Assembly: GCA_025558095.1 (NCBI GenBank)
Contig: JAIVFI010000005.1
Span: forward strand, 496,001-560,000
From: Hyaloraphidium curvatum
Lineage: Eukaryota > Monoblepharomycota > Hyaloraphidiomycetes > Hyaloraphidiales > Hyaloraphidiaceae
DNA: 64,000 nucleotides
Direction of reading: 5' to 3'
Shown here: positions 373 through 58,365 of the stretch, piece by piece
Layout: each line of letters begins with the position of its first letter
Numbering within the stretch: the first letter of the stretch is position 1
Translations under genes and position numbers: made by a program
The notes under the pieces: model-generated
Databases searched by the model: none
What the model saw: the letters and a program-made list of their open reading frames with translations, nothing else
Told to the model about the DNA's origin: nothing

Positions 373-2161
373 ATGTCCGCCGGCTTGCCCTACCTGGGCT
401 CGAAGATTTCCCTCATTTCGCGGTCCGACATTCGCTATGTCGGCACCCTGCACTCGGTGAACCAGCAGGAGTCGACCGTGTCCCTGCAGAATGGTTTGGA
501 CGCGTTCGCGCAGAGGGAAGACACGTCGGGGTCTAAACAGCCCAACCCGCAGTGCGGTCATTTGGCACCGAGGGCAGGAAAGGAGGCGGCGCAGAGGAGT
601 TGCCGGCCTCGGACCAAGTGTTTGACTACATCGTCTTCCGTGGGGCCGACATCAAGGACCTCCAGGTTCTTGAAGCCGCTTCCGCGCCACCCCCCAAGCC
701 TGCGATTCCAAACGATCCGGCGATCCTTGCGGTCGGTACATGGTTTCTAGTTTTGCCTGCTTCAGTTGTGCTTACGGAAGGTTAAAGACGCAGGTTCCGC
801 CCGGTGCCGCGCCTATGCAAGGCTTTGGCCCTATGGGCGGCATGCCTTTCGGGATGCCACCGAACGCGATGGGCTTGAACCCTTTCATGCTGCAGCAGTT
901 GGCGATGCAGAACCCCGCCTTGTTCCAGCAGCTGCAAGCGGCTATGCTCCAGCAGGCTAGCATGGTGAGAGGTGCGGTCCCGTTGGCAGGAAGCAGCTCA
1001 TTGAGCCACACACAGATGCAGCAACAGATGCGACCTCCAATGGAAGGCCAGGCAGTGCGACCGCCGGCTCCGCAGGCTGCTTCTGCTCCGGCAGAGGCCA
1101 CCAAACCCGAAGAAGAGGCCGTAAAGAAGATGGAAGCGCTCCAGATCGCGCAGCCAAAGGAGGCGCCGAAGGTTGCACCGGTTCAGCCTGCGGCGAGATC
1201 CGCCGCTGCCGAGCCAGAGGCTGCGAAGGCGGCCCCGGCTGCGGAGCCGAAGGCCGCCGAAAACAAACCAAAGGCGGCGCCGACGATGGCGGCGGTAGTC
1301 GCTGGAGCTGCAGTCGCTGCCAGAGCAGATGGTGATTGCTTGTGCGCTAAGCTACTCACACTAGCTGATCGCGATCACAATAGGTGCGGCACCGGCTCCC
1401 AGGCAGCCGCGCGAAAACAACGATTTCAACCGTGGCGGACGTGGAGGGCGCGGCGGCCGCGGTGGTGACCAGGCAGACCGCTCGGGAGGTCAGGATCGCC
1501 GCCCGGCGGAAGGAAGTGGTTACGGAAGGGGAGGTCCCCGTGGTGGCATGGCGGGACAGGGCCGTGGAGGCGCCCCGCGAGCTCCGCGTGTCACGGTGCC
1601 GGTGCCGGACTCGGAGTACGACTTTGAAGGCGCAAACAAGAAGTTCGAGGAGATCACCAAGGACGACCCGAAACCCGAATTTCACCACGACGAGCACGGC
1701 GCAAAGGCCGAGAAGGAGCAGGAGGTTGAGATCGAGGTCCCGGTTTCCCCGACGAACTTCTATGACAAGAAGAACTCGTTCTTTGACAACATTTCGTGCG
1801 AGACGAAGGACCGATCTGAGGCTGCCGAGAGGTGGGCGGCATTTTGCGACGCGGTTCCACCTCTTGCTGACGAACAAGCTGTGGTAGCGGACACCACTTT
1901 GATCGGAGGGCGAACCAGTTCCAGGAGCGGAAACTGAACATGGAGACGTTCGGGCAATCGGGAGCATACGTCGGAAGGGGACGCGGCCGGGGTTACGGAA
2001 GGGGACGCGGCGGCGGCGGGAACCGGGGTCGCGGGCAGGGGCAGCGGTGGCGGGTGGGTGTTGTGCGTCGTACAATCGGTTCGATCTAATCGGTGCGGCT
2101 GTCGCAGGCGAATCCCAACTCTACCGGAGACCCTCAGTCGGTGGCAGAGGCTAGGTCTTGA
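373..2161 (+). CDS. SCD6: LSM14/Scd6-family mRNA decapping and translation repressor
   Basis: Cytoplasmic P-body protein that represses translation and promotes decapping with Dhh1/DDX6 and Edc3/Dcp2 in known family members. Six exons give about 494 residues: 373-493, 553-731, 794-1331, 1384-1831, 1909-2053, 2108-2161. Residues 1-85 form the divergent LSm domain, starting [19 protein letters not shown] and ending [14 protein letters not shown] methionine-, glutamine- and alanine-rich linker follows. Next come the FDF motif ([14 protein letters not shown]), an FFD box ([14 protein letters not shown]) and a TFG box ([10 protein letters not shown]), with RGG/GRGRG tracts before FDF and at the end. 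The splice between the FFD and TFG boxes (intron 1832-1908) restores the normal spacing. Domain order and length match the family, so the identity is firm. The last exon is less certain, because unspliced the frame would stop at 2087-2089. Confidence 0.9.
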
Positions 2162-2324
2162 ACAAAAGAGGAAGGATGAATCCAATTTGGCGATCCGACG
2201 TGTTGACCATTCGCTGCACATCCACACGCACGATCATGGGCGAAGCATGGGGCGTGCCCGCTGCAACGCCAACGTACGGACGCGCGCTCCAAGTGCCGTC
2301 TCAGAAGTCCGACGAAGATCTCCG

Positions 2325-3853
2325 ATGTCCGGCTTCCAGAACTTCTACGATGCCGGCGGATTTCACGGCGGCTTTCCCGGAATGATGCCGGCCAGGGAAG
2401 GCGCCTTTGTGGGTTCATTAGGGGAAGTTCGGGGTCACTCGCCAACGCTTGGCACCGGACTTCAGGACGAGATGCTCAGGGCGTATTCGGTGGTAATGAT
2501 GGCGACGAAGGAGCCGAAGGAAAATGTGAACTACGGGGGCAAGAGTGGGTTCTCCGGGGCTCCGGGGTCCCATTCGGAGATCTTACCGCGCGACAGTCCT
2601 CCTTCCGCCTTCCGCCCTGGACAAGCTCTGTGAGATTCCATTACCCTCCCAAGCCGAGAATTTTCGATTCTGATCTTGCACCGTTTCGCTGTCTCGCTCC
2701 CCTTGGCTAGCGCGACTGCATATCGAGTATCCCATGACCTTTGAGCTGTCCAACAGATCTTTGGACCGCAAGACCCACGCGGGCGTTTTGGAGTTTGTTG
2801 CCGAGGAGGGACGCGTCTACTTGCCCAACTGGGTCGGTGTGCTCTTTCGCTGGGCCATGGACGAGTCTATAGCTCGCCTGCTTTTCAGATGATGAGCCAG
2901 CTGCTGCTGGAACAGGGCGACCTCGTGCGGATAAGAAACACCAGCTTGCCGACTGGGTACTTCGTCAAGATCCAGCCGCAGCACCCCGATTTTCTTCAGA
3001 TCACGGATCCGCGGGCAGTGTGCGTGTTCCTCACGCCATGGTCCCGTCTGCCGAGCTCACGGACGTCTGCTAGTCTCGAGAACGTGTTCAGGAACTTCTC
3101 GACGCTAACACAGGGCGACATCATTAGCATTAGTTACAACAAGAAGACCTACGACATTCTCGTGATGGAGATCAAGCCGCCAGGGAAGGGCATTTCCATT
3201 TTGGAGACGGACCTCGAGGTCGACTTTGCGCCGCCATTGGGCTACGTCGAACCAGAGGCGAAGCGGCCGGCCAGTGCCACGGTTAGTCGCACTCCGCGCT
3301 TGCCGGGGCTCTTCTCGTGGTGACGGTGGATCGCCTCAGCCGAGCCTTGCTGGGTCCCAGATGAGCATCGATCAGCACGTGGTCGAACGCGAAAAGCCCA
3401 GTTTCTCGGCGTTCGCGGGATCCGGAAACCGCCTGAGCAACAAGGGGAAGGGAGCTGCGGTGCCGCCGTGAGTGTTGTGAGAAATGTCGAGTGCCTTTGC
3501 TAACCGCTTTAGCCCAAACAGGAGCGAACCTGTTGTGCACGCTCCTTCACAAGCCTCCGCTGCCCCCGCTGCTCTTCATCTCCCCCCTGGAAAGCTCTTT
3601 TTCGGTGCGCACATCAATGATGCAAAGTGTTGCTGTAGCTGATGCCCATCACCTAGGTTACAAGGTCGAGCCGTACAAGACCAAGGAGGAGAAAGAGGCT
3701 GAGAAGGAAGCTGCGGCACAAGCTGCTGCCTTGCCGACGACTGGGGGACAGACGCTGCGGGGAAAGAAGCCTCCCCCTTCACCAGCACCCTCGCCGAAGC
3801 CGCCAGCACCGCCATCGCAGGCGCAACCTTCGAAAGGATATACCCTGAAGTAG
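2325..3853 (+). CDS. UFD1: UFD1 ubiquitin-fusion degradation protein
   Basis: Substrate-recruiting cofactor of the Cdc48/p97-Npl4-Ufd1 segregase, acting in ER-associated and proteasomal degradation. Nine exons give about 357 residues, inside the family range: 2325-2408, 2466-2544, 2597-2629, 2711-2832, 2889-3019, 3074-3281, 3340-3467, 3513-3604, 3657-3853. The double-psi barrel is clear: [20 protein letters not shown], then [30 protein letters not shown] and [20 protein letters not shown]. The C-terminal part carries the conserved GKLFFGYKV before a lysine/glutamate-rich and proline-rich tail ending GYTLK. The first intron (2409-2465) is in frame and optional. The other splices are forced by conserved residues on both sides. 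Confidence 0.9.
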
Positions 3854-4117
3854 AGACCTGGATTTGTACGCTTGGACGTGGACTGAAAGATCGATGAGCT
3901 TTGTCGTCCTCCGTTGATGTGATCATTCGCAGCATTGGTCTCCCGCTCCGAGCGCACCTCCCCTCCCACACCCGCTCAGGCTCTCGTGCCCCGTTAACGA
4001 ATCAGGCAGGTTCATTACTTGCCGCGCCGCGCCGGCAACGCGTGCTGCGGCCTCTGGCGACTTGTTCTGACCGTGATGGGCCGACTCGGTCGCGGAAACA
4101 AAAGTTCCCGCATCGCA

Positions 4118-4931
4118 ATGTCGGACGAGCAGGCCAAAATTGAGGAGGTCGTTGAGGACGTCGAGGAGGATGATGACATTCCGGACCTCGAGGACGCTCC
4201 CGGTGCGGAGGGAGGCGCTGCTGGCGGCGATGACGACGGCGACGTGCCCGCGGACATGGCCGGTACCCGGAAGAACCAGTCGCGCAGCGAGAAGAAGGCC
4301 CGCAAGGTCAGACATGATGCGTTGGCCGCGATAAGTTTGCGGTGCTGACGCGCCGTCGGTAGGCCCTCTCGAAGCTCGGCCTGAAGGTCATCCCCGGCAT
4401 CACCCGCGTCACCATCCGGAGACCCAAGAACGTGGGTTTCGCTGGAGCTCGCGGCACGATCACGAAGTCTGAAGCTCGCTTCGCAGGTCCTGTTCGTGAT
4501 TGCCCAGCCCGATGTGTACAAGAGCGCTACCTCCGAGACATACATCGTCTTCGGCGAGGCCAAGATTGAGGACCTCAACTCACAGGCCCAGGCCTCGGCT
4601 GCCGAGCAGTTCAAGGCCCCCGACATGAGCGGAGCTCGCGACAACGACGACGATGTCCCGGACCTTGCCGAGGACGAGGAGGCCGTTGACGAGACCGGTG
4701 TCGAGGCCAAGGACATTGAGCTTGTGATGACGCAGGCCAACGTCTCGAGGGCAAAGGCAGTCAAAGCCCTCAAGGTACGGATGCTAATCGGAATCTCCTT
4801 TCGGTATCCTGACGCCTCTCCCTCGCAGGAAAACGACAACGACATTGTAAACGCAATCATGGCGGTAAGTGGACGCGGCGATGCTGTCTTGGCCGCGGGA
4901 TTTACTTCGCTATCCCTAGATTACGCTCTAG
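4118..4931 (+). CDS. EGD2: Nascent polypeptide-associated complex subunit alpha
   Basis: Alpha subunit of the ribosome-bound NAC heterodimer, which shields nascent chains and controls SRP access. Five exons give about 197 residues: 4118-4306, 4363-4431, 4487-4774, 4829-4864, 4920-4931. An acidic N-terminus precedes the NAC domain ([51 protein letters not shown]). The C-terminus is a UBA domain ([20 protein letters not shown], then [12 protein letters not shown]). The final exon codes only three residues plus the stop, and it recreates the usual end of the family. An upstream in-frame ATG at 4076 would add 14 residues; I prefer 4118 because it gives the typical [10 protein letters not shown] start. 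Confidence 0.92.
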
Positions 4932-5144
4932 TGCCAAATTTCTGCGCAAAGCTCCGTCGTGGCTGGCTTGGTTCCTTCTGTACGGGGGCTGGCAATACAC
5001 TGCGTGCTGTGGTGCCAACCTCAGAGGAGTGAAGAGCAAGTCCACAATATAAAATCACGAACCAACTACATCTAGCTAGCTATCAACTTGCCAGAACTGG
5101 AGTAGGCGAACCCCTGAGGTTGCTGGCGCGCGCTGCGCGTCAGA

Positions 5145-6887
5145 TCACTTGGCCTCGATGCGCCGATCCGGGCTGATGACCCGTGTCGGCCCCGCCGTCC
5201 CGTTGGTCCCCACCTGGCCGTTCTCGCCCTCTCCCGAAAGCTCCATCTCGGCCTGCTTCCGAACCACGCCGACGACGGAAGGCAGACACAAGCCGCAACA
5301 GCAGATGAGGATGCCGAGCAAAATCCAGACGGGAATGAGCACCACAGCCATAGAGTAGCCAGCCCCGTTGAGGCGCGCGGCCAGCAGGCCGATCAGCAAG
5401 TAGGCGAAGAAGGAGACTATGCAGAAGAACACGATGCGGGCATTGAGCATGCCGCTCATGGCTTCCTTGACCTCCTTCTCGGCGCCTTCGGGGAGCTCCA
5501 TCCCCAGGGGAAGGTCCAGAGTGGGACCCTTGACGCGGAGGATGATGAGGTGGATGGCCTCGAGCAAGCCGGGGAGGTAGAGGGGAATGAAGACCCTGCC
5601 GACGTGCCGGGTAAGCCGGTGCCCCCACAAGATCGCACCTTTGGTACCCACACTGGCCAGCCGACACTGATCGACCCCTCGGCTTTCAGGCAGATGAGGA
5701 TGGCGAGAGCGACCCTCAAAGCCTGCCACCGGAACTGGTCCCACACCGCAAAGGCGGTCTCGCCTCCCGTCATCTTCTGCAACTTGTAAACCAGCTTGGG
5801 CTCCTGCGTCTCCTCGTCCGTCTCCTTCACCAGATGGGGCACGCCGAGCTTCTGCGTCATCTGGAACGCCCGGATGTTGGCCGCAAAGTTGATGGCCTCG
5901 ATCAGCCAGTACGGCACAAAGACGAGCCACCACGACGCGGATATCGTGGCGTCCAGCTTCAGAACGACCAGGATTTGGAACACGATCCCCAGGATATGGA
6001 ACGTGAGACCGAGGATCTTGGTCATGCGGGCGCGTTCCTCGCGCTGCTTCCGCTTCCGTTTGCGCTCCTCTTCGTCGAGGCCGAGCTCGTCGTCGTGGGC
6101 GTCCCCGAGCTCTCCCTCGTCCTCCCCTTCCGCGGCCTTGGTCGGCAGCGAAATCAGAATGAGGAGAATGACCAGGTCCAAGAGCCAAAGGGGCGAAAAT
6201 ACCGCGGCCCACGGCCACGAGACCTTGCCGTCCGTCTGCAACGTGAGGAAGATCGGGAACAGGAGAAAGACGCAGAGGAGGAAGGTGCAGGTGAAGAAAA
6301 AGACGTTGATGAGGCGGATGACTTCCGGGTTCAGGAACTCCTGGAGCACGAAGGCGTGGGTTCAGAGGCCGAATCATCGGGCGGCCTGCTTCCCGGAACC
6401 CACCGCGAGCGGCCCCGCTTGATCCATCATGGTCACACCGCGCTCGCCATATTCGTCATAAAGTGCCCTCTTGCCCTCGTCGGCTGTTCGTATTGGCCGC
6501 GTTAGCTGGAGGCCCCGCTGCCGCCGCTGCCAGCACATACACAGGGTGTCGAAGGCAAACTTGATCCGCTGGAACTGGAAGGCCGAAGAAACGAGATTTA
6601 AGTGCGTTGATCACAGTTCAGTTCAGAGCTGGTGACCCACGGCCTCGGTGGTTTCCGGCGTGTGGTCGCGGACCTTGTCGGGGTCTGGCGGAGGTCAGGA
6701 CGCCGGACGGGAGCAGCCACGGGGTGCACGCACGGTACTTGAGCGCCATCCGGCGGTAGCCCTTCTTTATCTCTTCCTGCGTGGCCGTGCGCGGCACGCC
6801 CAGCACGTCGTAAAGCGACGCGTGCATCATCTGGGCCGGCGTGAGCTCGGGCGGGGCCGCAGACGACGACGATGCTGCGGCCGCCAT
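5145..6887 (-). CDS. J-domain protein fused to a TMEM185-like multi-pass membrane region
   Basis: Six exons give about 483 residues: 6887-6734, 6684-6641, 6574-6541, 6483-6404, 6340-5652, 5595-5145. Residues about 20-85 are a complete DnaJ domain: SLYDVLGVPRTATQEEIKKG, then the HPD motif in KYHPDKVRD, then FQRIKFAFDTLSDEGKRALY and DEYGERG. After MMDQAGPLAEFLNPEVIRLI come several hydrophobic segments (for example FFFTCTFLLCVFLLFPIFL and ILLGILICCCGLCLPSVVGV) with a charged EEERKRKRKQREERARM loop between the first pair. The pattern resembles the TMEM185A/B family. The protein should be a membrane-anchored Hsp70 co-chaperone, with the J domain facing the cytosol by inference. Every splice is needed to keep the J-domain signature intact. 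The start at 6887 lies about 158 bp from the divergent BOP1 start. Confidence 0.8.
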
Positions 6888-7044
6888 CGTGGCGCGACTT
6901 CGAAGGTTGTCGGACGATGCCGTGGGGCGCGGCGAACGTGCGGTGCCGCACGCCGGCGCTGGCAGGTGATCGCGAATATGTGCCGGCGGCCGCGGGCGAC
7001 GCCTAAGAGCTCCGCAAAGTAAACAAAGCTTGCCGGCTCGTCCG

Positions 7045-9875
7045 ATGGCTCCCAAGCGCAAGGAGCCCGAGCCCGCTGTGGCAAAGGGTGTGCCGGCGGG
7101 GAATTTGTCGTCCGATGAGGAGGACGCGGCGCTGGCCAGCTTGGCACTGGAGGATAGCGAGTCGGAACCCGAGCCTTGGAGCGACGAGCTCTCGGAGGAG
7201 GCTGGCTCGGAAGACGGCTCCGAATCTGCGGACGGAGAGAACGAAGTGGAATCTGATGACGCTGGGTCGTCCGCGGACGATGAGAGCGGCGACTCTTCTG
7301 ACGAGGACGGCGAGGGCTCGGACTCGGAAGGCGATGAAGGCTTGTCAGCTGGTTCCGCGGAGGAAGATGCGGAAGCAATGCCAAATGGACGGCCGTTGTC
7401 ATCGGAAGGACTCGGTGACACGGGGGACAAGGAGGCGCCCGCTGCTACTCGCCAACGAGTAAAGGTCCAACGAGGATCGTCTTCCAAGTCTGCCCGGCAG
7501 ACCGTCACGAGCGATGACGACAGGTGCGAAGTTCTTCTGCGTTAGCACCACGTGTCTCTGACGCCTTTTCTAGCGGGTACTCTTCGAAACCGGAGCGGAA
7601 AGGTTCGCTCGATACCGTCGACTCCGCGGAAGGAGAGGCCGGTGCTGTCACTGAACTGCCTTGGTGGCGCACCAACCCGGAAATCGAACCGATTTACGAG
7701 AGCGATACGTCCGACGAGGTGGGTGGAGCCTCCTTCGATCGCCAGAGAGCTGCGTCTAAGACCGGCCGCAGGAAACCGGAAACACCGTCGGCAACATTCC
7801 TTTGGAATGGTACGCGGACTATCCGCACATCGGCTACACCGTGGACGGCAAGAAGATCATGCGCCCTGCGACCGGCGATGCCTTGGACAAGTTCCTTGAC
7901 CAGATGGATGACCCCAAGAGCTGGCGGACTTTCCACGACCCCTACGAGGGCAAAGACGTGGTGCTGACGCGGGAGGAGCTGGACCTGATAAAGCGGCTCC
8001 AGGGCCAGGCTTTTGGTGATTCGTCGGTTGATCCCTTCGAGGTGCGTTTCGATTCTTTCGCAGCGCGAGGCAACCTGACCATGCCCCCATAGCCGACAAT
8101 CGAGTGGTACACCAGCAAAGTAATGGAAACTCCCCTGAACGCAGCTACGGAGCCCAAGAGGCGTTTCATTCCTTCGAAGTGGGAGGGCAAGAGGGTTGGT
8201 TGCACTCCTCGTCCTTCACTATCCGGTACTGAGGCAGCTTTCCGCAGATCATGAAGATTGTCCGCGCGATTCGAAAGGGCTGGATCGTTCCTCGCGCCGA
8301 GAAGGCTCCCAAGAAGCCCCCGGTTTACATGCTTTGGACGGACAATGATGAGGAGCGGCCGGACCACCCCATGCACGTGCCCGCGCCGAAAATGGCACCG
8401 CCGGAGCACAACGAATCGTACAACCCGCCGGCAGAGTACATCCCCACCGCCAAGGAGGTCGAGGAGTGGAACGCGGCGGATCCAGAGGACCGCCCGACCA
8501 ACTTCATCCCCAAGAAGCACAAGAACCTCCGCTCGGTCCCGGCCTACACCCGCCTCCTGAACGAGCGCTTCGAGCGCTGCCTGGACCTGTACCTCTGCCC
8601 GCGCGTGCGCAAGCAGAAGATCCAGATGGACCCCGAGGCGCTGATCCCGAAGCTGCCGGATCCCAAGGACCTGCAGCCCTTCCCCATGGTGCTCGCCATC
8701 ACATACACCGGCCACACCGGCAAGGTGCGATGCACCTCGGCGGATCCCACTGGCCGATGGCTGCTCTCGGGGTCGGACGACCGGACGGTGAGGCTCTGGG
8801 AGGTCAACACGGGGCGGTGTTGGAAGACGTGGGACGTGGAAGCCACCGTCCACTCAGTAGCATGGAACCCGAACAAGGCTCTCTCCGTTTTCGCCGCCGC
8901 CGTGTAGGTGTTTTCCTGTTGGCTCGGTTTTCGAGTTCTGACCACGCGTGACTGCGCAGCGGCGACACCGTGCTTCTGGTTGCCCCGGGGATCGAGAACG
9001 AGGCCGTGCAGACGGCATCCGAGGCGATCTTCCGGTCGGAATCGGCGGCGCCAGACGACAAGGCGGGAGTCGTGTGGGCGAAACCTTCCGAGGCCGAAAG
9101 CCGCGCCGGGATCCGGGTCGTGCTGCGGTTCTCGCGGAAGGTCAGCAGCGTGGTCTGGCACCGCAAGGGCGACTACTTTGCCGTGCTGAACCCGGACGGT
9201 AAGCCGTTCGCGTCGGTGGATCGTGCCGGCATTTGACAGTTCCACAGCTCCGAGCTCTCCAATCTCGGTGCACCAGCTTTCGAAGCGGCAATCGCAGCAC
9301 CCGTTCCGCAAGTCCAAGGGCGCCGTGCAGAAGATGCTCTTCCACCCCACGAAACCTTTCCTTTTCGTTGCGGTAGGTTGCACGGCGGACACCCGTCTTT
9401 ACTGTCTCTGAACCTCGTTGCGCAGACGCAGCGCTACGTCCGGGTCTACGACCTCATGAAGCAGGAGCTGCACAAGACGCTGATGTCCGGCGTCAAGTGG
9501 ATCTCCAGCATGGACGTCCACCCGCAGGGCGACAACGTCATCGTCGGCTCGTTCGACAAGCGCGTGTGCTGGTTCGACATGGACCTCTCCAGCAAGCCCT
9601 ACCGCGTCCTGCGGTCGCACGACAAGGCCGTGCGCGCGGTCAGCTTCCACCGGCGCTACCCGCTCTTTGCCTCGTGCAGCGACGACGGCACGGTGCAGAT
9701 CTTCCACGGCATGGTGTACAACGATCTCATGCAGAACCCCCTCATCGTGCCGGTTAAGGTGCTCCGCGGGCACGAGGTGGCGGACGACCTGGGGGTGCTG
9801 GGGTGCGAGTTCCACCCGCTGCAGCCGTGGATCTTTTCGTGCGGCGCGGACGGCACGGTGCGGTTGTTCTCGTGA
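7045..9875 (+). CDS. ERB1: BOP1/Erb1 ribosome biogenesis protein
   Basis: Component of the PeBoW/Nop7-Erb1-Ytm1 complex needed for 27S pre-rRNA processing and 60S assembly in the nucleolus. Eight exons give about 821 residues: 7045-7523, 7574-7718, 7772-8041, 8093-8194, 8248-8903, 8960-9198, 9248-9372, 9426-9875. The first 150 residues are a very acidic serine-rich region. The BOP1NT domain follows ([56 protein letters not shown]). A C-terminal WD40 propeller starts at [20 protein letters not shown] and runs to [11 protein letters not shown]. The motif [18 protein letters not shown] is typical of the family. All exon joins restore conserved blocks. The gene is head-to-head with the J-domain gene and converges on the DNA polymerase gene 86 bp downstream. 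Confidence 0.93.
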
Positions 9876-46361: not shown

Positions 46362-47943
46362 CTACATAATCGAGCAGATCCCCGACTTGGACTCCTTTTG
46401 TTCGCCGCCGCTCTTCTCGAGCTCGTCCAGCAGCTGCAGTCCCAGCTTTGCTTCGTCGCCCGTCGCGCCCTCCACTTGTGCCACCCTCTCCATGAGTGTG
46501 CGGGCCATGGCGAGGTCCTTCGGCAGAACGGTACCCTCCATGTAGAGCTTTGCGACGTTCATGACGGACGGCGTGAATCCCTGTTGCGCGGCCATCCTCC
46601 AGTACTCCGACGCACGCATCTCGTCCTTCGGTGCAATCTCCTCGCCAGTCGCGAGGTCCTTCATACCCGTCTGGTACATCGCAGCCAGGTTGTGCTGCGC
46701 AACGGCCAGGCCCATCCCTGCAGCTTTCTCAAAGAGCCGGAAGGCGCGCGCCACATCCTTAGGAACCGGATCGGCACCTGTGGACAAAATGGCGCCCAGA
46801 ACGAAGATCGCATGCGGGTGATCTGTCGCCAAACCGACGTGAGGCCTTCTTCATGTCGGCGGGTGCTTGGACCTACCCAGTTCGGCCGCCTTCTCCAAAA
46901 GAACCACGGCCTTCTCCACGTCCTTCTCGACCATATCGCCTCTTCCATCCTTGTGCGCGATTCCCATTTGCGCCAAAGCATCCGGGAAGCCCGCTTCAGC
47001 GGCCTTCTTCATGAGGTCCCATCCTTGCCGCTGGGTCTCCTCCACGGCCGCCCAAATGGTCGCCAAGGCATACTGCGACGGTGCGTGTCCCTTGGCCAGC
47101 GCGAGTTCCTGCAACCTTCCAAGAGCGATTTGGGGACCATCCGGAACGGGTATTATGCCCCGGTGAAGCATGACAGCGACGTCACACTCCGCGTCCAAGT
47201 CCTCGCGCGAGATGGCCACATCGTAAAGCCGCATCGTAACCGGAATGGCGTTGGGATTCCGTGCCAGGACGCGGGCCAGCATGCTAATGTTTCGCGTGTC
47301 CTTTGCCGCGACTGGAGGAACGTTAAGCGGTGAACCAGGGGCGGAAAAGCGGCCGGGCCACTGACGTTCGAAAATCCTCTCATCGGTCTCCAGCATGTTG
47401 GGTTCGGGTTTCGGTCTTCCATCGGCCGCGTCCCCCACTGTGCTATTCACCGCGTCCACAGCGATTCGGAGCAACTGCATCCCATCCGGGGGTTCGATGG
47501 TAATGAGCTTCTGCTCCTTCATGGCTTTCAAAGTCCGGTCTGGGATTGCAACGTCTGCATCACATTGGCTGATCAGGGCGGTCTCTGGAGCTCATGATCC
47601 GCCGGGGCTAACCTTCTAAGGTGATCCGTCCCGGGACGTCGGTCTCCTCGTGCGCAATCGGCTCGTCTCCCTCAGACCCGGCTTTTTCTTCGGCGGCAGC
47701 AAAAATCCCGCCCATGGCAGATTTCTTCCGAGGTCCATGGGTCGAAAAAGGGCGAGAAGGCGCCACCCGCGTCCAAGCGGAACGTTCGGGCGGATTCGCG
47801 CTCTGCGCTCCTTCCCAGCTCGCAGAACACGCGTTCCCCACTCTCGGCGCCAAGAGCAAGGATGACGTCGCAAGGATTGGAACGCGCGACGGAGATGCGT
47901 GGCATAGGGCTAGAATCGGTGGCAATGGCCGCGATGGTCGCAT
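46362..47943 (-). CDS. Mitochondrial protein with Sel1-like repeats
   Basis: Three exons (47943-47613, 47554-46877, 46822-46362) give about 489 residues. The N-terminus MRPSRPLPPILALCHASPSR ... RPFSTHGPRKKSAM has no early acids and a typical RPFS-type processing site, so it is probably imported into mitochondria. The second half consists of Sel1-like repeats: WDLMKKAAEAGFPDALAQMG, KAVVLLEKAAELDHPHAIFV, AFRLFEKAAGMGLAVAQHNL and SEYWRMAAQQGFTPSVMNVA. Such repeats form adaptor scaffolds. I do not recognise the orthologue. The start codon is 52 bp from the left end of the transposon. Confidence 0.75.
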
Positions 47944-47994
47944 GTTTACAGCACGACGGGTGGCGTCGATCACGGGCTTCGTCTCGGTGAGTCG

Positions 47995-48017
47995 CACACA
48001 TCGCCTCTGCTACTAGC
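47995..48017 (+). repeat. left terminal inverted repeat (candidate)
   Basis: Reads CACACAT, six unmatched bases, TGCTACT, one unmatched base, GC. The same pattern, in the same register, occurs on the reverse strand at 56623-56645. Sixteen of 23 positions agree, in two blocks of seven and one of two. Confidence 0.5.
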
Positions 48018-48048
48018 TGTTGCTAGAAAATCCGCCGGCAGCGCCCCA

Positions 48049-49200
48049 ATGCCAGTGGCCTTGGCATCTCCATCTGCAAACTCTGCGCCTCGGGCTTCTT
48101 CACAACTACCTGTGCCCCGGACGCCAATGTTGGTGGACGGCCCCGCCATCGCAACTCGGCTCAAGCAGACTGGGAAGCTGAGCTCGGCGGAGATTTCTGC
48201 GTCGTTGGGAGTACATCGCACGACCTATTTTCGTTGGATCAAGTGGGCATCGCTGCCCCCGGCATCGAGAGAGGGAGTTCGCAAGGTCCGGAGCCGCCGC
48301 AAGGTCACGGACCAGATGGTCCAGGACATCGTACACGAGGCAAAAAGCCAGGTCAGGGTCACCCAGCAGGAGCTAGTTCTTTTTCTGGCAGAAAAGTACG
48401 GGATCCGCGTCTCCCAGCAGCACGTTTCGCGGCTGCTGAAGGCAAATGGCGTCACTAGGAAGAGGCTCACCGTCAAGTCTTCCGAGGCCTTACGGCAACC
48501 GGAAAGGCATCTTCTGTTTCATAGTCGCATCGAGAATGTGCCTATGGAACGCATGGTCGCACTGGACGAAACGGCTTTCGAGCTCAACGACCCGGGCAGC
48601 CACGGGTACTCGGACCGCGGAAGCCGCGCTGTTGTCTACCTCCCGCGGAATAGAGGTCCAAAGGTGACTCTGTGTCTCGCAGTGTCACCAAGTCCTCGTC
48701 CGGGAGCAGTTGCTGGAACGGTGATCTCGTATGTGATCTACCGTGGCAATATGAACACGGAGCGATTCTGCGCTTTCTTGAGGTCTGTTAAGGCAGACGG
48801 ACAGGGCCCCAAGAACGCGCTGAACATTGTGATTGACAATGCTGGTTACCATGGATCCCCTTTGAGGGCAAAGAAGACCGCAAATGGTACTGCGATTGTA
48901 GAGAACACCTCCGGCAAATCGTTCCTCGCGGTTCAGGCGGTGGCGAAAGCCAACAACCTCAACCTCGTGTACCTGCGACCCCGTACTCCCGAGTTCAATG
49001 CGAGTGAGCACGTGATAGGGCGGTTGAAGCGCCTTGTCCGGCGAGACTGTCCCTCCACTGTGGCCGATCTGATTGACGCTGTCGAGAGGGCGATACGAAT
49101 TGTTGGGGAGAGCGATCTCTGTCCCACTTTTCGGCACTGCATCAAGCTCAGCGCGGAAGAGAAGGCGCGCATTCAGCGGGAGATGCTTCGGTCCGACAAC
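48049..49200 (+). other. IS630/Tc1/mariner-like DDE transposase domain
   Basis: Helix-turn-helix region: KLSSAEISASLGVHRTTYFR, then VTQQELVLFLAEKYGIRVSQ and QHVSRLLKANGVTRKRL. Catalytic motifs: the first aspartate in MVALDETAFELN (about D173), the second in NIVIDNAGYHGS (about D263), and the third acid in RPRTPEFNASEHVIGRLKR (about E320). By hand count 56 residues separate the second and third acids, against 34-39 in typical family members. The residues needed for strand transfer all appear intact and there is no frameshift. Confidence 0.85.
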
Positions 49201-52200
49201 CTTGGTTCCACGAGCGGGTGCATACAACCGGAAACGGCAACTGGCGAGATCACGGGAGACACAAACTCGACCCGCATGGACACCGGATCGGGTCCCGGGG
49301 CCGCGCCCAGGAACGCGGTGGACGACGGCATCGCTGCTCGAGAAGCGGCCCGCCTGCTGCAGGAGGTGGGGAACTCGTCGCCGTCGTCATTGACGCGTGC
49401 CGACCTCCGTTTGACTTCCCAGGCCCGGGAACTCGGAGTGGCCGAGGTCGACGTCCACAAGGCCTACGATGTGAACCAGCTCTATGGCCGACTACGAGGA
49501 CTCAGTAATGGAGGTGCTTTCGGATCGGCGTGGAACACGTTTCTGGACGAGCTGCAGAACGCCCGCGCCACCGCCTCCAAGGACGTCATCGGCACCCTCA
49601 CCTCCCTCCCTCCCGACCAGTTCCGCGGAATATGCTCCGCAGTCGAGAAAGGCAAAGGCAAGGAGGTCCGCGCGGCCCTCTGCCGGAAGCTGCGGAACTT
49701 CGTCGAGCGACGTCGGCTCCCCGCGCCCGTCGCCGACGAACCATCGCCGGCCACTGCGGGCACCCCTTCCGGCCTCTCGCCGCCTCCGCCGCTCTTTCCA
49801 ACTGTTTTAGCGAACCCGATTTTCGCTCCAGCCGTTGTCGGAGCCCCGGGGGCGCAGCTGGACGCTCTGCTGGACTACGCTCTGGAGCCGACCGTGCCCA
49901 AGGACCTGCGTGAGGCTGTCAAGTACGCGTGCTGTGCCGGGCTTTCCGACCTGGACCAGGGTCGTCCGGACGGCAGTTACTCGTCCCTCTCCGCGACGAG
50001 GAAGGAACGACTTTTTGTCTCGCGCCTGGTGGCGGTCGACCGTGAAGGAGGCTTCCACCGCTGGACGGCAGCGACCGAGATCCGTCTGCGTGGGCGGCTG
50101 ATGGCGAGTGATGCGGCTCGTTTGGATGATTTCGTCCATTCCGTATTCCTTGCTCGAGTGCGGCACTTCGTTCGCCAGCCGGAAGCCGGGCTCATACCCG
50201 TGGAGGACTTCGAGCTCCCAGCCCAGACCCACCTCCGCCGGCCGCAGAACTGGCGCAAGATCCTGGAGGACGCCCTCGGCGCGCTCAAGAACGCGTCCGG
50301 GAAAGCCCTGTGGGATCGGAGGAGTCGTTCGCTCGAGGTTGCGCTCGCCAGCCTGACTCTGGAAGAGCGCATGGCGCTCGTTGTCCGCACGGACTTGCCC
50401 AAGGACATTGCCTTTCAGCAGGCTGAACAGCGCCGCATCTTCTTCGAAACCTTCCTCTGGGGCCCCATGAAGGCCAACGAGGCGCTCCTGGGCATACCGG
50501 ATCGTGGTCCGGTGCCCGCGCTGGTGAGCAACGTTCTGGCTTCCAGCTCCAGCATTCTGGGCTGACGGTGCACTCCTCGCAGCCGCTGACCTTCTACGAG
50601 ATCTTCCAGCCCACGAAGGGGTTAAGAGGCGTGAGCGAAAGGGCGGACGCGGACCTCGGCTCGTTCTTCGACAAGGCTTTGGCTGCTGTGCACGGAGAGG
50701 AGGGGCGCTCGGTCCTGTTTGAGTTGATCTTTTCTGGCCACCCGATGCGCGACCATTTGCTGGACTATTGGGGGTTCGATTCGCTCGTGAACCCTGTCAG
50801 CGACGCCGCCCGTCGCGCGAGCGTCGCGTTCCACCTGAAGTTGGACGCGCTCGAAAAGGCCTTTGACGCCAAGCGCGTCGACATCTGTTCCCTCGGATGC
50901 CTTTATTGTCCCTTCACAGTGGCGGTCGAGGGCCGGGTGCCGGCTCGGAACCCGGAGCGGAAGAGAAAGGACGCGAACGGCGCTACGGCCGGCAAGTCGT
51001 CGGATCAGCGCCAGTACGACGCTGGCGTGCGGCTCGGGCATCACGTCGCGGGGAAGCACTTTACGTGCCAGATCTGCCGCAAAGACGGCAGGCGTGTCAC
51101 GTTTGCGTTCGAGGCCAAGTACCGGGAACACGTGGAAACCCAGCATGCAGATGCTCCTCTCCAGTAGGTCTCCGCAAGAGATCCACACGGGGTCATTACT
51201 CATCCTCGCTGTCCCAGCCTCGTCATCCCCCGGGCCTTCACATCACGGCGCGGACTGCTGCTCGCCCAGGTCAACTACATTGTGCCGCACGCCTGCCGCA
51301 CTCAAGCAACGGAAGCGGAGAGTGCTGCCGCCGGAGCAACGGCGATGGACGTAGACGGGGCGAAGGACGAAGGTTGCGCGGCAAAGGAGCCCAGGTGCCA
51401 CCTCTGCCTGTCGACAACCCGGGGACACCGGCGAGGATGCCGGCCGGCTTTGCGGCAAGCTGCGGAGAATGCGTACAAGGCCGTCGGGGATGCGGAGCAC
51501 GAGCGGCACGTGACCGAGCGCGCCATGTCGACAACCTGGTTCTTGCCCGAGGAGGCCCTCCACCCCTGGGCGATCGAGCCGCTCAAGAGCGTGGGGCTGC
51601 TCATTTCCCGCGCCGCAACCGGTGCGGCGTCCTTTGCAAAGCTCGTCTGGACCTCGGCGATGCTGGCAGTATACAACGGTCTGCTGGACAACCGCTCCGT
51701 TCCCCCTGCCATCCTGCGCAAGTTCCCACCTTCCGTCGTAGCGAACATGGCGATGCGGGTGGTTTTGAACGAGGGGGCGCTAAACGCCAACGCAGGCACA
51801 CGCCGGAGGAAGAAGCCGCGCGGGGACATCGGCACGGATCCGGGCGTGGAGATCACCGCAACTGGCGCGGGACTCGGCACGGTCACGGAAATGGCGGAGG
51901 ACGATGACGAGCCCGCTGCCGAAGATGGGGAAGAAGAAGAGGAGGGCGGAGATTTCGGTGAATACGCCGGGTTCGCGGACTTCCTGGCCGGCGAGGGGGA
52001 AGCCGACGGACCTGAACACGTGCTGGAAGCTCTGGGCGCCGGCTTCGGTGGCGACGGGATGGCCGACGACGGCGAGGCTTTTGACGGTCCCGGCACCCTC
52101 TCCGTGGAGGAGCATAACGCGGCGGCTGCGGTTCTGCGGGCGGTAGTCACCGACGCCTACCACGAGCTGAGGCCGGACCTGGCTTCCGAGTTTGCCGACT

Positions 52201-55200
52201 GGCACCACTACCTGCTGCGCGGCCCGCTGCTCGGTTACTTCAGGAATCTTGCCGCAGGACGCCTCCGCACCGTCCCCATCCAGCTGCGCAAGGAGCTTTC
52301 GGACCTGATCCGCACCTTCCTGAAGGAGGAGCTGGACAACGCCGTGAAGCGGCAAAAGATTGGCCACATCTTGCGCTGCGTGCTGGCCAAGCTCGGGACG
52401 GGTGATACGAACTTTTTCGGCACCAGCTTCGCGGCCTTTGGCTGCAGCCCCGAGTTTGACGCGGAGGCTCGGCTTCGCCTGACCTGGCTACTCCTGCCGC
52501 TATCCGGACGCTCGCTGAATACGATCATGGACCTGCGGGAGCCCCGCGACCGGCCAAAATGGCCAGCGACTGTCCTACAGCGCGTGATGCTTTCGCTGAG
52601 GAAGCGGGACGTGGAGCTGAAGCGGTCGGCGATGGCGACGCGTATCCGCAGCGTCGCCATATCGCCGCAGAAGGCGCGCGGCAAGTCGCAGGACGAGGAG
52701 GACGCAAAGGCGGCGTACCTGCTGGATCTGCGCGACCGGGCCCAAGCCGAGCTCCGCCGGATGCCGCCTGAAGCGATCAGGCAACTGCAGGAGGAGGAGC
52801 GGCACGAACTGGTCGAGACGTATGTGGCTGACAAGCTGCAGTTGCGTGGCATCCCCGTCGAGATCCCCTCCGTGCAGGGGGTTGGCATCCACCCCACAAA
52901 GAGCCGCTTTTGGGGGCCGGAGTGGACGGAGGGCCTGGACAAGGAGGCGCTGTTGCAGCGCTACGAGAGGGAGCTGCTCGATGAGAGGCAGAGGGCGCGT
53001 CAGCTGAGCACAGCTGAACTTCGCCTCGCGCAGACGGGCAAATGCGCGGACGCGGACGCGTTTGGCTCCGAGGCTCTCTTTCAGACTATGCGGCTGCGGG
53101 AGGAGCAGATCGCGAGGCTCAAGATGCGGCGATCGTCAAGCGTTGCCTCGACCGGATCTGAACCAAGCCCGACGGCCTTGCCGCAAAGCTCGACACCGAC
53201 ACCTTCATCATCGAGTGCGGCGGACAGCGCTCGGCGCGTCGCCGCCAGCTTCACCACCGAGGCCGCAATGGACGTTGACCCTGCGAACGAGGCGGAGGGT
53301 GGTGGACCCTCTGCGACTCTGTTCCGCGGAAGTGCCGCCGTGGACCTGCTTTGCGCGGACATGGAATGCTCCGACTCGGAAGACGGCAATGTTGAGGCTG
53401 CTGACGACTTCCCCACGATCGGCGGCGGGAAGCAGAAGTCGAAAAAGGGCCGACCGATCCGAGTGGACCCCAAGCCGTGGCCGAAGAACGGGGCACCCAA
53501 GCGATTCCATGGCTACGTCACGACGGGGAAGAAGCGGGCGCCGCTGTCGCCCGAGGGCAAGGTGAAGAAGCGATTGGGGAAGTCACGTGTGGCGGCTCGC
53601 CGATGGTCCAGCGCGGCCGGAGGGAGCGGGGAGAAGAGCGTGGGTGACGCGTTCTCTCCCGTGGTGAGGTCGTCATTCTGATACGTTTCATGAACAACAG
53701 CAGTCAAGGACCCAAGGCGGCACCACCGGAGGGACCTGGGCCGCGGGCGGGATCCGGCCGCTCTTGACCAGGACTTCCCTCACCCCCATAGCCCTGTACA
53801 TAACCGCGAGCGATCTGCCCGACCTCTTCAAGATGCTCGGTGTTAAGCTCGGCCCCTTGGCACCGGACGTGGCCAAGATCAACCCCGATTACCTGTTTGG
53901 ACACCTGTTCAACAATGGCAACAAAATTGTTCAGGACGAGCGTCTTTTCCGCCTCCATCAGGAGGGGAAGCGCTCCCCGGCAGGGCACGCGGACGCCTCA
54001 CGGCCGACCCTTCGCCGGTCGGGCGATGCGCTGCACTGCTCGTGCATTGCTGGCATGGTTCTTCGTGGCCCAACCTTTGCCATTGTCGAGGAGCACATGG
54101 CCGTCGTGCCCAGGGCTTCGAAGCCGAAGGCACCGCAGCAGCAGTGGACGGAATCTGAGCCCAAAGTGACGCCGCCCTTGGATTGTAGGTCCCCGTTCTT
54201 TCATCGGAGCTTCCGCGCCTAACCTGCTTCCCAACAGTCTTCCTCAGCGCGCCATCGCCCGAGCCGTGTTGGGAGTGTACGGAGCCAGAACAGCACGCCC
54301 ACTGGCACGACTTTTCGGCCCAAGATTCGTTCGGGATGCCCGCGGTCCTCGTGCCCACCCTTCCGCACGGTGCTCCGGACCCCCCGCCGGGCATGGCCGT
54401 CGTTGATGGTATGTCATCCTTGCCGCTGCACTCAGCGCTGCTGATGTGTTCATCTTCAAGCTCACGGCTGGCTCCATGCTGGCGGGACCGTCTTCTTCCC
54501 CCCGCCCGCCATTACCGACGATGCCGAGCACTTGCTGGTAGATCCCGACTCGACTCCTTTCACGTGGATGGACGTGGATCAGGATTGGATCGGGCTCCCG
54601 CCTCCCGCCTCCATCCCCCCCGAACCCCCACCCGCAACATCACCGAACTCCTCCACATCGGTACCTTCCGAGTCTCCATCCTCCTTCACTCCCACCCTCG
54701 CTCCTCCGCCTCCTCTTCCCATCCCGACGGCCTCGCCTGTGGGTGCCGCAGGATCTTCTCCGCTTCCGCCCTCTTCTCCACCTGCCCCTGCTCAGCCTCC
54801 AACCTCCGCTCCTCTCCCACCGCACCCTCGCTCTACGTGCTCATCGATACCTCGTCCGCCTGTTGACTGGAAGACCTCTATACCGTGCTACAACTTTAGC
54901 CGGAAGGCGGACGCGGAGAAGCTAATGCCGCACTTCCTAACAATGGCAACGGAAGAGGAGATGTGGGATGCCGCCCAACGGGGCCTTCCCGTTTCTGGTG
55001 GCGTTGTCTTTTGCGATCCAAATCGCTGGTTCTATATGCAGGGCGGTCGACGACTTGCACCCGCGTTTGTGGCCCGCTGCCTGGACCCCGGCCCGGGGAG
55101 ACGGTTCGACTTCGCAAACACCCACCTACCCGAGCTTTCGGAGAAGATCGTCGTCACCAACCCGGACGGCACCACATCGACATACATTCTTGTGCGCGCC

Positions 55201-56630
55201 AACGTGCCCAAGGGGTGCATCTCTGCGGGCCGCATCAAGGACATCCGGCTCGAACACTCCTGCGACGAGACGGCCCGCGTTGCGCGGGCGACGCAGGCGG
55301 CGCCGCGCAACATCCGCTGCCGACACCACCCGGACGGCGCCGCCAAGCTCTCGGCTCACCGCCCGACCAACCGCGGGCATGCGAACCGCGACGAGAAGCT
55401 GCGGAAGGCCGAACGGAACTGGACGCTTTTCCCCAACCCCGACGGCGGGTCCGATGCCGACGGGGACAGGTTCTGGGGTGGTATCGCCGGCTTTGGGCGC
55501 GCCGGCGTCCGCCAGCTTCCGGAGCTCATTCTCGGCGTGCCTGGGGACCTCGATCGCCGGATGTGTGGTTACCAGCACGCTTCTAGGAAACTGGCGTCGC
55601 TGCGCAAGTCGCACACCCTCCCCTCCGGCCTGACAATCGAGGCTTGGGAATCGGCACTGCCTTCGCAGCGGACGACGAGCTGCGAGCAGTTTCGCAAGTA
55701 CGCCCATGCCATCACGAAGGAGCTCTGCTCCGTCGTCAAGTTCTACTGCAATGATGAGATATGGTTTGTTCACGGCCAGCCTGCGTGATTGGGATGCAGC
55801 CTTCCTGACGCCTTCTTTTGCAGCCGCGACCGCGTCCGTACCATCCGGAGGCGTCGGCAGGTGCTCGACTGGATCGCCCGCGACCTGTGTCGCAACCCGT
55901 ACTCGGGCAAGTTCGATTCCCAGACCACCTTCGCCTATGGCGCCGCCCGCTTTGGTCACGCAAGCAAGGGCGGTCCGGCTTCTCGGATTGTGCAGTTCAG
56001 GGCCGCGCTCGCGGCCGTTGGAATCCTCGTTTTGATCAACGAGTACCTGACGAGCCAGATGTGTTCAAAGTGAGTTTTCCCTCGTACTTCGCGCCTGATT
56101 TCGCGGCATTGATCGCCCTCTCGGCAGGTGCCTGACGACCTACGTTGTCCCCATCACCAACCCCGGGTGCCGTGGCGAGATCCGGGGCGCCAAGTACTGC
56201 CCGACCTGTCGCACGTACTGGATGAGGGACGTCAACAGCTGTCGGTCCATCGGGTACCTGTTCTGGTTCGCGATCGCTACCGGTGGCGAGCGCCCCTGGC
56301 CGTTCAAGCCTGACACCAGGAGGCGCAAGCCGTCGAAGCCGGCCGCGAAGTCCGCTGGTACGCTGATTTTGCTCGCTTTGGAGCGTGTGAGCTGATGGCG
56401 TTGCAGGCACCACTCTTCAGACCGGATCCGTTCCCACCGTGCCCAAGCGTCCTGGTGCGGTGGCGCGGGGACGCGGCTCTGCCAAGAAGGTCAGGCTGGA
56501 CGGCCCCGGCCGTGGGTCTTCTTATCTTTCTTCTCTACAAATTGGCGGGTGGTGCGAGCCCTCGCCTGTGCCCGATTGTGGGCTTGATCGAGGTGGAGTC
56601 CGAGAGGACCGCCTTTTTGGTGGCAAGTAG
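48049..56630 (+). CDS. DDE transposase-Fanzor fusion protein (single-gene model)
   Basis: Nine exons join in phase into 2,720 codons: 48049-50523, 50583-51163, 51218-53663, 53701-54184, 54238-54408, 54461-55763, 55824-56069, 56128-56357, 56407-56630. Introns are 59, 54, 37, 53, 52, 60, 58 and 49 nt with GT-AG ends. Residues 1-375 are a transposase with DNA-binding helices. About 400-1020 is unrecognised and ends in a CxxC/C2H2-like cluster (CSLGCLYC, CQIC, HVETQH). About 1060-2640 is a Fanzor with an N-terminal CHLC-H-C finger, helical recognition region, proline-rich insertion and RuvC domain with zinc ribbon. The middle segments have no good internal start: the first ATG after the transposase frame lies at codon about 50 of exon 2, and Fanzor could start alone at ATG 51345 (about 1,658 residues). 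The 37-nt intron is the weakest junction. Two separate genes remain possible. Confidence 0.62.
49201..51163 (+). other. unrecognised linker segment with zinc-finger-like cysteines
   Basis: About 630 codons between the transposase and Fanzor parts, crossing one intron (50524-50582). A serine/glycine-rich start leads to predicted helical sequence (QARELGVAEVDVHKAYDVNQ; DVIGTLTSLPPDQFRGICSA), a proline-rich hinge, another helical block, and a C-terminal cluster CSLGCLYC ... FTCQICRKDG ... YREHVETQH. I do not recognise these domains. The zinc-finger-like part could help the protein bind element ends. Confidence 0.5.
54961..56357 (+). other. Fanzor RuvC nuclease domain with zinc ribbon
   Basis: RuvC-I aspartate in SGGVVFCDPNRWFYMQGG (codon at 55015). 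The interim region CGYQHASRKLASLRK and KYAHAITKELCSVVKFY leads to TTFAYGAARFGHASKGG, which matches the Fanzor block where canonical TnpB has its RuvC-II glutamate. LINEYLTSQMCSKC (glutamate codon at 56041) and KYCPTCRTYWMRDVNSCRSI (aspartate codon at 56228) complete the site. The two CxxC pairs form the zinc ribbon. The segment is spread over three exons, which argues against bacterial contamination. A basic tail (KRPGAVARGRGSAKKVR) could be a nuclear localisation signal. Confidence 0.85.
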
Positions 56631-56645
56631 CATTCCATATGTGTG
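56623..56645 (-). repeat. right terminal inverted repeat (candidate), overlapping the element's stop codon
   Basis: Reverse strand reads CACACAT, six unmatched bases, TGCTACT, one unmatched base, GC. The TAG stop at 56628-56630 lies inside it, and the host phosphomevalonate kinase stop codon is 31 bp beyond its end. Confidence 0.5.
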
Positions 56646-56676
56646 TAGCCAGGTCGACGTCCAACTTGAGACCGGA

Positions 56677-58365
56677 TTACACCTTGTCGAGAACTGCTTT
56701 TAGCCCCTTGACATCTGCTGCGCGCTCGATCCTCGCACCCGCGATGCCAGCCCGGGATAGCAGCCCGCACACGCCCCCCCTCTTCTCCCACGCCTTCTGC
56801 ACCTCGCGCGCGACCTCTTCGCCAACCACGATGGCGTAAATCGCGTCCATACCACCTGCTCCGGGCACGGCAGCGACCAATACTCCGGGGCATGCCATGG
56901 TCTCGTCCAGCAACGAAGTCTGCTCCGGAGGCTCGATCGGCACCGCGGCCAGGTCCGACATCAATCTGAGGTTGGATCGGAGACCCAAACAAGTCTCATG
57001 CAGAGCTCGGAGGGCGGCAGTGGTTTCCGACGTCGACTTCATATCCTTGGCAGGTTGCGCCGAAGCACGGGCAAGGTCCGCCGCGTAACCATCCGGATCG
57101 GCACTGGCAAGCTCCTCCAAGCGCCGGAACAGAGCAAACAGCTTCATGTTCGCGCGATCAATGTCGGTCCACAGCACCCCGGCCTGATCCGGGTTGTCGG
57201 CCCGCCATTTGAGCACCTTGCTCACCATTCCCGGAGTCTCTGACCCAGCGGATATGTCCGCAAGCATGAGCACCAACCCACGTGGCAGACTGACTGCTGT
57301 ATGGCTGTAGTTCCAGGGGTCCGCGCCCGGTTTCGGCGCCAGCAGTTCCGCCAAGTCATTCAGCGTCAGCTTGGAAGCTTCATGGAGCTGAAGCAGGGAC
57401 ACTGAACTTAGCTTAAGCAAAAAGTTGAACATCGCCTATGCTCACCTTGATTGCGCGGGCGACAATTTCCGGGTCGAATCGACGGTACACGCCGGAACCA
57501 AACACGGCGCTCGCGACGTCGAACCCGCTGCCGACCTTGCCTTGCGCCAGACAGTGGGCAAGCTGCGCCGTAGCGTGCCCAATCTGCCTCCCGCGCCGCG
57601 CGAGGTCGGCGTCCTCGGAGGAGAGGGAGATCACTCCAAAGAACGAAAGGATCGTGAACACGAGGGACGTGACCAAAGCCGCAGACGACCCCAGGCCAGT
57701 CTTCCGTACGCCGCTCAACGGACCAAGCGGCATAAAAGGTTCCAGCTGCCCAAGTCCTTCCGCGGTCCGCGGCAGACCGCGCGCCTCAAGGTTGGAAGCC
57801 TGGGAGTAGAAGTCGTTGTCACCAAGCACGGCGACGGTCAAGCCCGCGGCAAGCTTCTCTTTGAAGATATGCGGCTCCGTGGTGAGGGCCAAAGACAACG
57901 AAAAGAGCAAGGCATTGGCAAGGTACGGGTTGCTGCCCGACCGCGCTTCCAAGCCTACGAGCGCCCCAGCGCCCTTGTCCACCACATCGTAGGCCCATTG
58001 CACCCCGTCAAATTGAGGGGAGACCACCGTAACCCGTCCAAGCAGGTTATGGGGTCGCTCCGAGAGGCCATCTGCGGTTGCATGGCCGGCGGTCCTCGCG
58101 CACGAGAAGAAGCGCGAATCCGTTGCGACCGACGTTCCCTCGTACGCCCTATCGAGAACAAGGTAGCCGCCGGTGATGAGCACTTTGCCGGGAGCCGAAA
58201 CGATTCTGTTGGGAGAATGGGCGCGGCGGCATCCGGAAAAGAGCGAGGCCGGCGTCCGCAGATTGGCGACGGCATCGCGACGGAAGGTCCGGGATCAGGA
58301 AACGCTGCAACTGAATGCCCGTTGGCCAATACTCACGTCCATTCCGCATTGCTTGCGGAGGGCAT
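56677..58365 (-). CDS. ERG8: Phosphomevalonate kinase
   Basis: Phosphorylates mevalonate-5-phosphate to the diphosphate in the mevalonate (sterol) pathway, in the cytosol. Three exons (58365-58337, 58205-57446, 57387-56677) give about 499 residues. The first exon supplies MPSASNAEW and splices to TIVSAPGKVLITGGYLVLDR, the start typical of the family. The GHMP ATP-binding motif is PLSGVRKTGLGSSAA, followed by LAQGKVGSGFDVASAVFGSG and SLPRGLVLMLADISAGSETP with GMVSKVLKW. The end VKGLKAVLDKV is complete even though the transposon stops 31 bp beyond its stop codon. The first intron (131 nt) is unusually long for this window. Confidence 0.92.

Follow-up and report, generated by a model that had tools for sequence, protein, structure and literature searches.

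A candidate single-chain fusion of an IS630/Tc1-mariner-type transposase and a Fanzor-type nuclease in mobile elements of Hyaloraphidium curvatum

In CRISPR-associated transposons of type V-K, the transposase and the nuclease are separate proteins, the nuclease is inactive and insertion takes place at a set distance from the recognised site. The locus described here resembles these systems in combining a type V-like nuclease fold with a transposase and in the set distance between site and insertion. It differs in that both parts are predicted from sequence to lie in one chain, with the catalytic residues kept. Fanzors accompanied by mariner transposases have been described as separate proteins in the available portions of four publications (PMC3627910, PMC10711439, PMC10432273, PMC11423790). 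The Fanzor1 proteins of Tc1/mariner elements such as PGv-1 and PUl-1 offer a likeness in their mariner-type transposase, Fanzor and terminal inverted repeats, but are separate from the transposase according to the accessible part of their description, whereas one spliced frame is found here (PMC3627910). No transposase-Fanzor fusion was found in the titles and abstract openings searched, the scope of which was thin on subscription papers and preprints. Fanzors in mariner elements are known; their fusion with the transposase in one chain is a strong candidate for a new arrangement.

The DNA analysed (the window) comprises 64,000 nucleotides, positions 496001-560000 of contig C5 in a genome of 31.9 Mb and 55 contigs. 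Short introns in the genes, about 63% G+C and a lack of prokaryotic kin fit a eukaryotic source. An earlier note on it had proposed that a DDE transposase and a Fanzor nuclease are encoded as one fusion gene, Fanzors usually being separate genes in transposons; for the latter statement, the part of PMC3627910 that was available gives the same description.

The element and its spliced gene model

A DNA search of the genome recovered five near-identical copies (about 100% identity) of about 47990-56652, corresponding to about 391-9053 of the query 47600-56900 and referred to here as family A; the flanks on both sides differ among the five. A second family, B, is present in ten copies. The terminal inverted repeats are imperfect, with two 7-base blocks in A and shorter blocks in B, in which the ends carry ACAC and GCTACT-like blocks and the second block is deleted on the left in some copies. 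In A the gene nearly fills the element, so that about 60 bases remain at its left end and 22 at its right end. Small deletions are seen just inside the left end (first 50 bases) at places that vary among A and B copies, an example being the loss of window positions 48022-48030 in one copy (L007). With regard to the TA target-site duplication of IS630/Tc1-mariner transposons, TA adjoins the right end of 9 of the 10 B copies, with TA (four) or TC (six) on the left; three of the five A copies have TA on the left and none has it on the right.

Relative to the window copy, the other four A copies show 5 to 11 base differences, with one indel each in two of them, and the C4 copy carries a one-base insertion at 54098. 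The chain is intact in four of the five copies, and splice sites are unchanged in all copies compared, a comparison that for two copies began about 165 bases in. In the other four copies the ATG at 48127 is present and exon 1 is stop-free.

Table 1. Predicted features of the family A copy in the window (positions of the window).
Feature	Position	Strand	Remarks
Target-site motif CGTCGATC	47964..47971	+	left flank, 27 bases from element
Whole element, family A copy	47990..56652	+	ends accurate to about 1-2 bases
Left bipartite terminal inverted repeat	47995..48014	+	CACACAT, 6 bases, TGCTACT
Exon 1	48049..50523	+	transposase and C-terminal extension, 825 codons
Transposase core, helix-turn-helix and DDE	48127..49173	+	D173, D263, E320 of chain
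Intron 1	50524..50582	+	phase 0; contains the TGA ending a transposase-only reading
Exon 2	50583..51163	+	two zinc-finger-like C-x2-C / H-x4-H motifs
Intron 2	51164..51217	+	phase 2; place and phase as in B, C and D
Exon 3	51218..53663	+	middle region, 36% identity to B
Intron 3	53664..53700	+	37 nt; B continuous here
Exons 4-5	53701..54408 (exon 4 53701-54184, exon 5 54238-54408)	+	
Intron 4	54185..54237	+	not in B, frame continuous there
Intron 5	54409..54460	+	phase 1; common to A and B
Exon 6	54461..55763	+	proline-rich linker and first RuvC motif (D2238)
Intron 6	55764..55823	+	phase 2; common to A and B
Exon 7	55824..56069	+	E2560 and first half of CxxC zinc knuckle
Intron 7	56070..56127	+	phase 2; cuts CxxC pair (CSK/C); common to A and B
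Exon 8	56128..56357	+	remaining zinc ribbon and RuvC-III RD (D2603)
Intron 8	56358..56406	+	phase 1; common to A and B; least certain intron
Exon 9 and stop	56407..56630	+	
Stretch conserved between A and B	56577..56611	+	candidate guide-RNA scaffold, weak; up to 23 identities in 25 bases
Right bipartite terminal inverted repeat	56626..56645	-	same two blocks and spacing as on the left

With eight GT-AG introns (37-60 nt) taken out, 48049-56630 reads as a continuous frame of 2,719 residues that closes with a stop. The frames, introns and chain of about 2,719 residues put forward in the earlier note were thereby borne out, nine exons translating through to the stop; the three introns that it had located (introns 1-3) fitted the spliced frame exactly, and the five more that it had counted were placed by hand (introns 4-8). 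A branch-like YTRAY site lies 15-19 nt before the AG in six introns out of eight. Intron 2 lacks such a site, and the nearest to the AG of intron 8 is at 11 nt. Splicing to a single polypeptide is inferred, and the chain may start at 48127 instead of 48049, since the first Met of B aligns with A residue 27; the ATG at 48127 occurs in all five A copies and that at 48049 in four.

A splice-aware dynamic-programming search of the same 8,582 bases, run without the model but with donor and branch rules fixed after the introns had been inspected, returned a chain of 8,162 nt in which seven of the eight introns were identical to those of the model; for the last, 56283-56329 was chosen instead of 56358-56406. 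By comparison, the opposite strand of 48049-56630 gave 1,094 nt, 40 Markov-1 resamplings of this stretch a median of 992 nt and a maximum of 1,901 nt, and five other window stretches, on both strands, a longest chain of 4,409 nt that was a single exon. A stricter version requiring a YTRAY branch site reached 5,156 nt and covered only the part past intron 2, as this intron is without such a site. The host gene adjoining the element (56677-58294, minus strand), which resembles phosphomevalonate kinase in a motif, holds an intron of the same kind (within 57330-57480; 58 nt, in-phase, GTGAGC...CAG, read by eye).

Domains of the predicted protein

The N-terminus is a predicted IS630/Tc1-mariner-type DDE transposase. 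Its core matched DDE_3 (4.7e-13) and HTH_33 (6.7e-6), and the window protein scored 114 bits against the IS630 model NF033545 (cut-off 100). In an alignment of four rows (A, B and two further relatives, leaving out C and D, see below), all four rows matched both the IS630 model and DDE_3, and the D, D, E triad was invariant. The likeness to IS630/Tc1-mariner transposases in DDE_3, helix-turn-helix and IS630 model score is accompanied by two differences: a large C-terminal extension and a spacing of 56 residues from the second D to the E, in both A and B, where usual members have 34-37. The genome also contains other transposases of the type that carry a long extension at the C-terminus (family E, at C5:421533 and C23:314192, and relatives); no Fanzor match was obtained where they lie. 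A further, single-copy Fanzor-like locus at C5:336026 is without a transposase match in the stretch read. At about 543-546 kb of contig C15, a B copy abuts a family E transposase that lacks its first part where the two meet; the right flank of this copy resembles that transposase, and its left flank had no match to the relatives searched.

About 1,900 residues separate the last DDE residue (E320) from the first RuvC residue (D2238), beyond which the C-terminus is a predicted TnpB/Fanzor RuvC nuclease. The RuvC D, E and RD residues are invariant and a C4 zinc ribbon is present in A, B and two single-copy relatives, C and D; E2560 is taken by us to be the catalytic E of the RuvC triad. The spliced window protein matched the TNB zinc-ribbon domain PF07282 at 1.5e-5 (25.5 bits, just below the cut-off of 26.3), and all four members matched it, the best at 6.1e-8. 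No match to PF07282 was obtained with the unspliced A frames scanned, because intron 7 splits the first CxxC pair and splicing completes the zinc ribbon. TnpB models matched the C-terminal part weakly, and profile matches to solved TnpB-like proteins included LaTranC and mimivirus L79 (each under 0.001) and Guillardia Fanzor1 (E 0.13). The Fanzor/TnpB motif, given in the available part of PMC3627910 as D-X(125,275)-[TS][TS]-X-X-C4 zinc finger-X(5,50)-RD, is present in order and residues in A, B, C and D, with SS at [TS][TS] in C and D; the spacer from the first D to TS is 324 residues in A and 337 in B, beyond the published range. As far as the accessible text on SpuFz1 and GtFz1 goes (PMC10432273, PMC11423790), the likeness to TnpB and Fanzor proteins lies in the RuvC D-E-D, the C4 zinc ribbon and the RD, and the difference in the 324-337-residue spacer and in the fusion of the nuclease behind a transposase.

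Between the two domains, the C-x2-C / H-x4-H motifs of exon 2, which is rich in C/H pairs, can be made out on inspection of all four (A-D); exon 2 had no Pfam match in A or B, and the exon 3 middle region had no match in Pfam or the protein database. Within the middle region of C, in a 1,374-codon frame, a weak OTU-protease-like match was observed (PF02338, E 0.018, 15.9 bits, cut-off 23.3). Among about 8,000 protein candidates sharing most words, no outside relatives were found for the middle frame or for exon 1 (as a three-family alignment), and none for the fused chain among about 8,000 candidates consisting of proteins of comparable length. Viral contigs, phages and prokaryote genomes likewise yielded no relatives, the collections searched being apparently poor in eukaryotes, which gives these negative results little weight. 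As relatives were not found outside, the fusion is seen in this genome only.

Near the right end, the stretch conserved between A and B is coding in the A model and lies past the stop in B, about 120 bases from the right end; its 17-base core occurs at 15 places, namely the 15 A and B copies. It had no match in Rfam. The right end folded no better than shuffles on the plus strand (z -0.31); for A, folding of the opposite strand had a z of -2.44. A right-end motif of B that resembles the target motif (AAAGGATT) was dismissed as a coincidence, as it falls within a hairpin and its spacing differs.

One product or two

In family B, removal of six introns gave 2,653 residues collinear with A over the full length; the two chains share 2,497 aligned positions, 43% of them identical. 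Part by part, B is 47% identical to A for exon 1, about 36% for the middle and 45% for exon 6. Introns 1, 2, 5, 6, 7 and 8 of A are common to B, introns 3 and 4 are missing from it, and introns 1 (57 nt in B) and 2 agree in place and phase. A single frame of B is open over almost the full element, in stretches of 808, 196, 1,003, 639 and 163 codons with single stops between them, and part of the B nuclease lies in another reading frame. The 1,003-codon stretch, within which no stop occurs between introns 2 and 5, crosses the position of intron 3 unbroken; this junction, the third named in the earlier note, is thus not a gene boundary. The B introns were placed by hand with A as a guide, and an unsupervised splice search of B agreed with the model for the first three and differed for later ones, which makes the 3' part of the B model dependent on A. 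All ten B copies are open in exon 1 and in the middle, and nine are open in the nuclease exon; transposase, middle and nuclease frames are all present in each of the 15 A and B copies. The alignment of B copies for polymorphism comprised nine of the ten (one was without an anchor), one of them out of register after position 3277.

C and D are single copies on contig C2 that are more distant from A and B and look decayed, given an apparent frameshift within the DDE domain of both and a G in place of the catalytic E in D. In each, a long frame (1,374 codons in C, 980 in D) runs from the middle region in the direction of the nuclease part or into it. Counterparts of intron 1 (59 nt in C, 63 nt in D; phase 0, directly past Val-Pro) and of intron 2 (phase 2, followed by Leu-Met-Pro in place of the Leu-Val-Ile/Ala-Pro of A and B) were located by eye in both. 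Together with the collinear chain of B, these counterparts support the transposase-Fanzor fusion gene of the earlier note. An uninterrupted spliced frame runs through both domains in A and B; directly past the splice acceptors, 9 of 30 residues are identical between them after intron 1 and 12 of 25 after intron 2 (LVIPR/LVAPR). Third codon positions are the least conserved in all nine segments compared between A and B, a purifying pattern, and pN (0.21-0.49) is below pS in each segment, pS (0.59-0.74) being near saturation. It is likely that the element has a single gene, for one spliced transposase-nuclease protein of about 2,700 residues; a fusion kept in two multi-copy families and recognisable in two older, decayed relatives is a strong candidate.

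It was also considered that both kinds of product are made, retention of intron 1 giving a transposase of about 840 residues and its removal the fusion, for which the regulated intron 3 of the P element provides an analogue. The unspliced reading of intron 1 (VSNVLASSSSILG/VCNLLSSSPAIPN, each up to its stop) ends at an equal codon offset in A and B, and 7 of its 13 residues are identical between them, no less than in the flanking exon, which makes an intron-retained, transposase-only product possible; the genome also holds transposase relatives at whose loci no Fanzor match was obtained. However, the TGA in question falls within a branch-like YTGAY site in A, B, C and D alike, so its fixed place needs no coding role, and the corresponding peptides of C and D agree at only 3 of 11 positions. 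Such a dual output was judged rather unlikely. Two separate genes were considered as well, with the transposase reading closed at 50563-50565 and a Fanzor gene whose start lies in exon 2 or exon 3. In favour of them are the in-frame stop between the parts, a Met in exon 2 (MRD) common to A and B and one early in exon 3 of C and D; separate genes are also the known arrangement in the available part of the work of Bao and Jurka (PMC3627910). Neither Met, however, occurs in all four families, no start codon past intron 1 or 2 being common to them, and conserved residues lie upstream of the first Met. Furthermore, the phases of introns 1 and 2 are kept in all four families, and the promoter of a second gene would fall inside coding sequence, making two genes quite improbable. 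Cleavage of one chain into transposase and nuclease, as in a polyprotein, would suit the long low-complexity linkers and the weak OTU-protease-like match in C, but that match is under the curated cut-off and nothing alike was seen in the A frames scanned; this, too, is improbable. The single spliced fusion protein was therefore retained as the preferred reading.

Target sites and a possible role for the fusion

The insertions do not look random: they tend to lie a short way upstream of genes, and a motif specific to each family stands at a set distance from them. All five A left flanks contain CG[TC]CGATC 15-30 bases out (three at 30, one at 27 and one at 15), against a window background of about 0.27 per kb over both strands. 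In B, the pattern A[AG]GGG[GAC][TCA]T stands exactly at -34 in 5 of 10 left flanks, and a looser pattern, fitted afterwards, in eight, with copies C5 and C6b as misfits; counted over 60 columns, T occurs at -27 in 10/10, A at -34 in 8/10, G at -30 in 9/10 and T at -2 in 10/10. The motifs were chosen after the flanks had been inspected. The A motif was absent from all ten B flanks within 60 bases, and the B pattern from all five A flanks. On the right, a same-strand ATG frame (at least 40 aa, or open) begins within 60 bp in 12 of the 15 flanks, as against 34% of random window stretches; looking outward on the left, one was found in 8 of 15. A palindromic target site, suggested by eye, was not supported, since none of the 15 sites fell at or below 5% of its own flank background and two fell at 7-10%.

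A host core-promoter element some 30 bp upstream of transcription starts might explain this pattern in place of any reading of the site by the element, and this is a real possibility, if short of an even chance. The excess of right flanks with a near ATG frame speaks for it, as does the genome-wide frequency of GCGTCGATCAC, which occurs 79 times, three of them at A insertions, compared with 6 for its reversed control. Against it, A and B use different motifs, and the B form GCAAGGGGTTT is barely enriched (14 compared with 8 for its reversed control, one at a B insertion). A division of labour in which the Fanzor half recognises the site, by means of its RNA or of its DNA-binding parts, and insertion by the DDE half takes place a set distance downstream is very doubtful, although nuclease-directed insertion in one chain would explain the fixed 34-bp spacing in B.

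With the single fusion protein as the preferred product, its parts would follow in the order helix-turn-helix and DDE, C-terminal extension, two zinc-finger-like motifs, lineage-specific middle and TnpB/Fanzor nuclease. The transposase part would excise the element and paste it where a short family-specific motif lies at a set distance, in many cases just upstream of a gene, a role in moving the element that follows from its IS630/Tc1-mariner family membership. With a guide RNA transcribed from the right end and on into the flank, the nuclease part would re-cut the emptied or allelic site, whereupon repair would copy the element back; such a role in keeping the element at a vacated site is suggested by the known behaviour of TnpB, as set out in the available part of PMC10432273. 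Fusion would bring both activities to one site in a fixed ratio, and it is a reasonable inference that homing would thereby be tied to transposition, as the earlier note had suggested.

The finding bears on the role of Fanzors in eukaryotic transposons, as the nuclease is here apparently tied covalently to the transposase. The near-identical and apparently recently spread copies would make the part of the nuclease in transposition directly testable, with the target spacing as a clean read-out. A natural transposase-nuclease fusion, if true, would also be of interest for targeted insertion tools.
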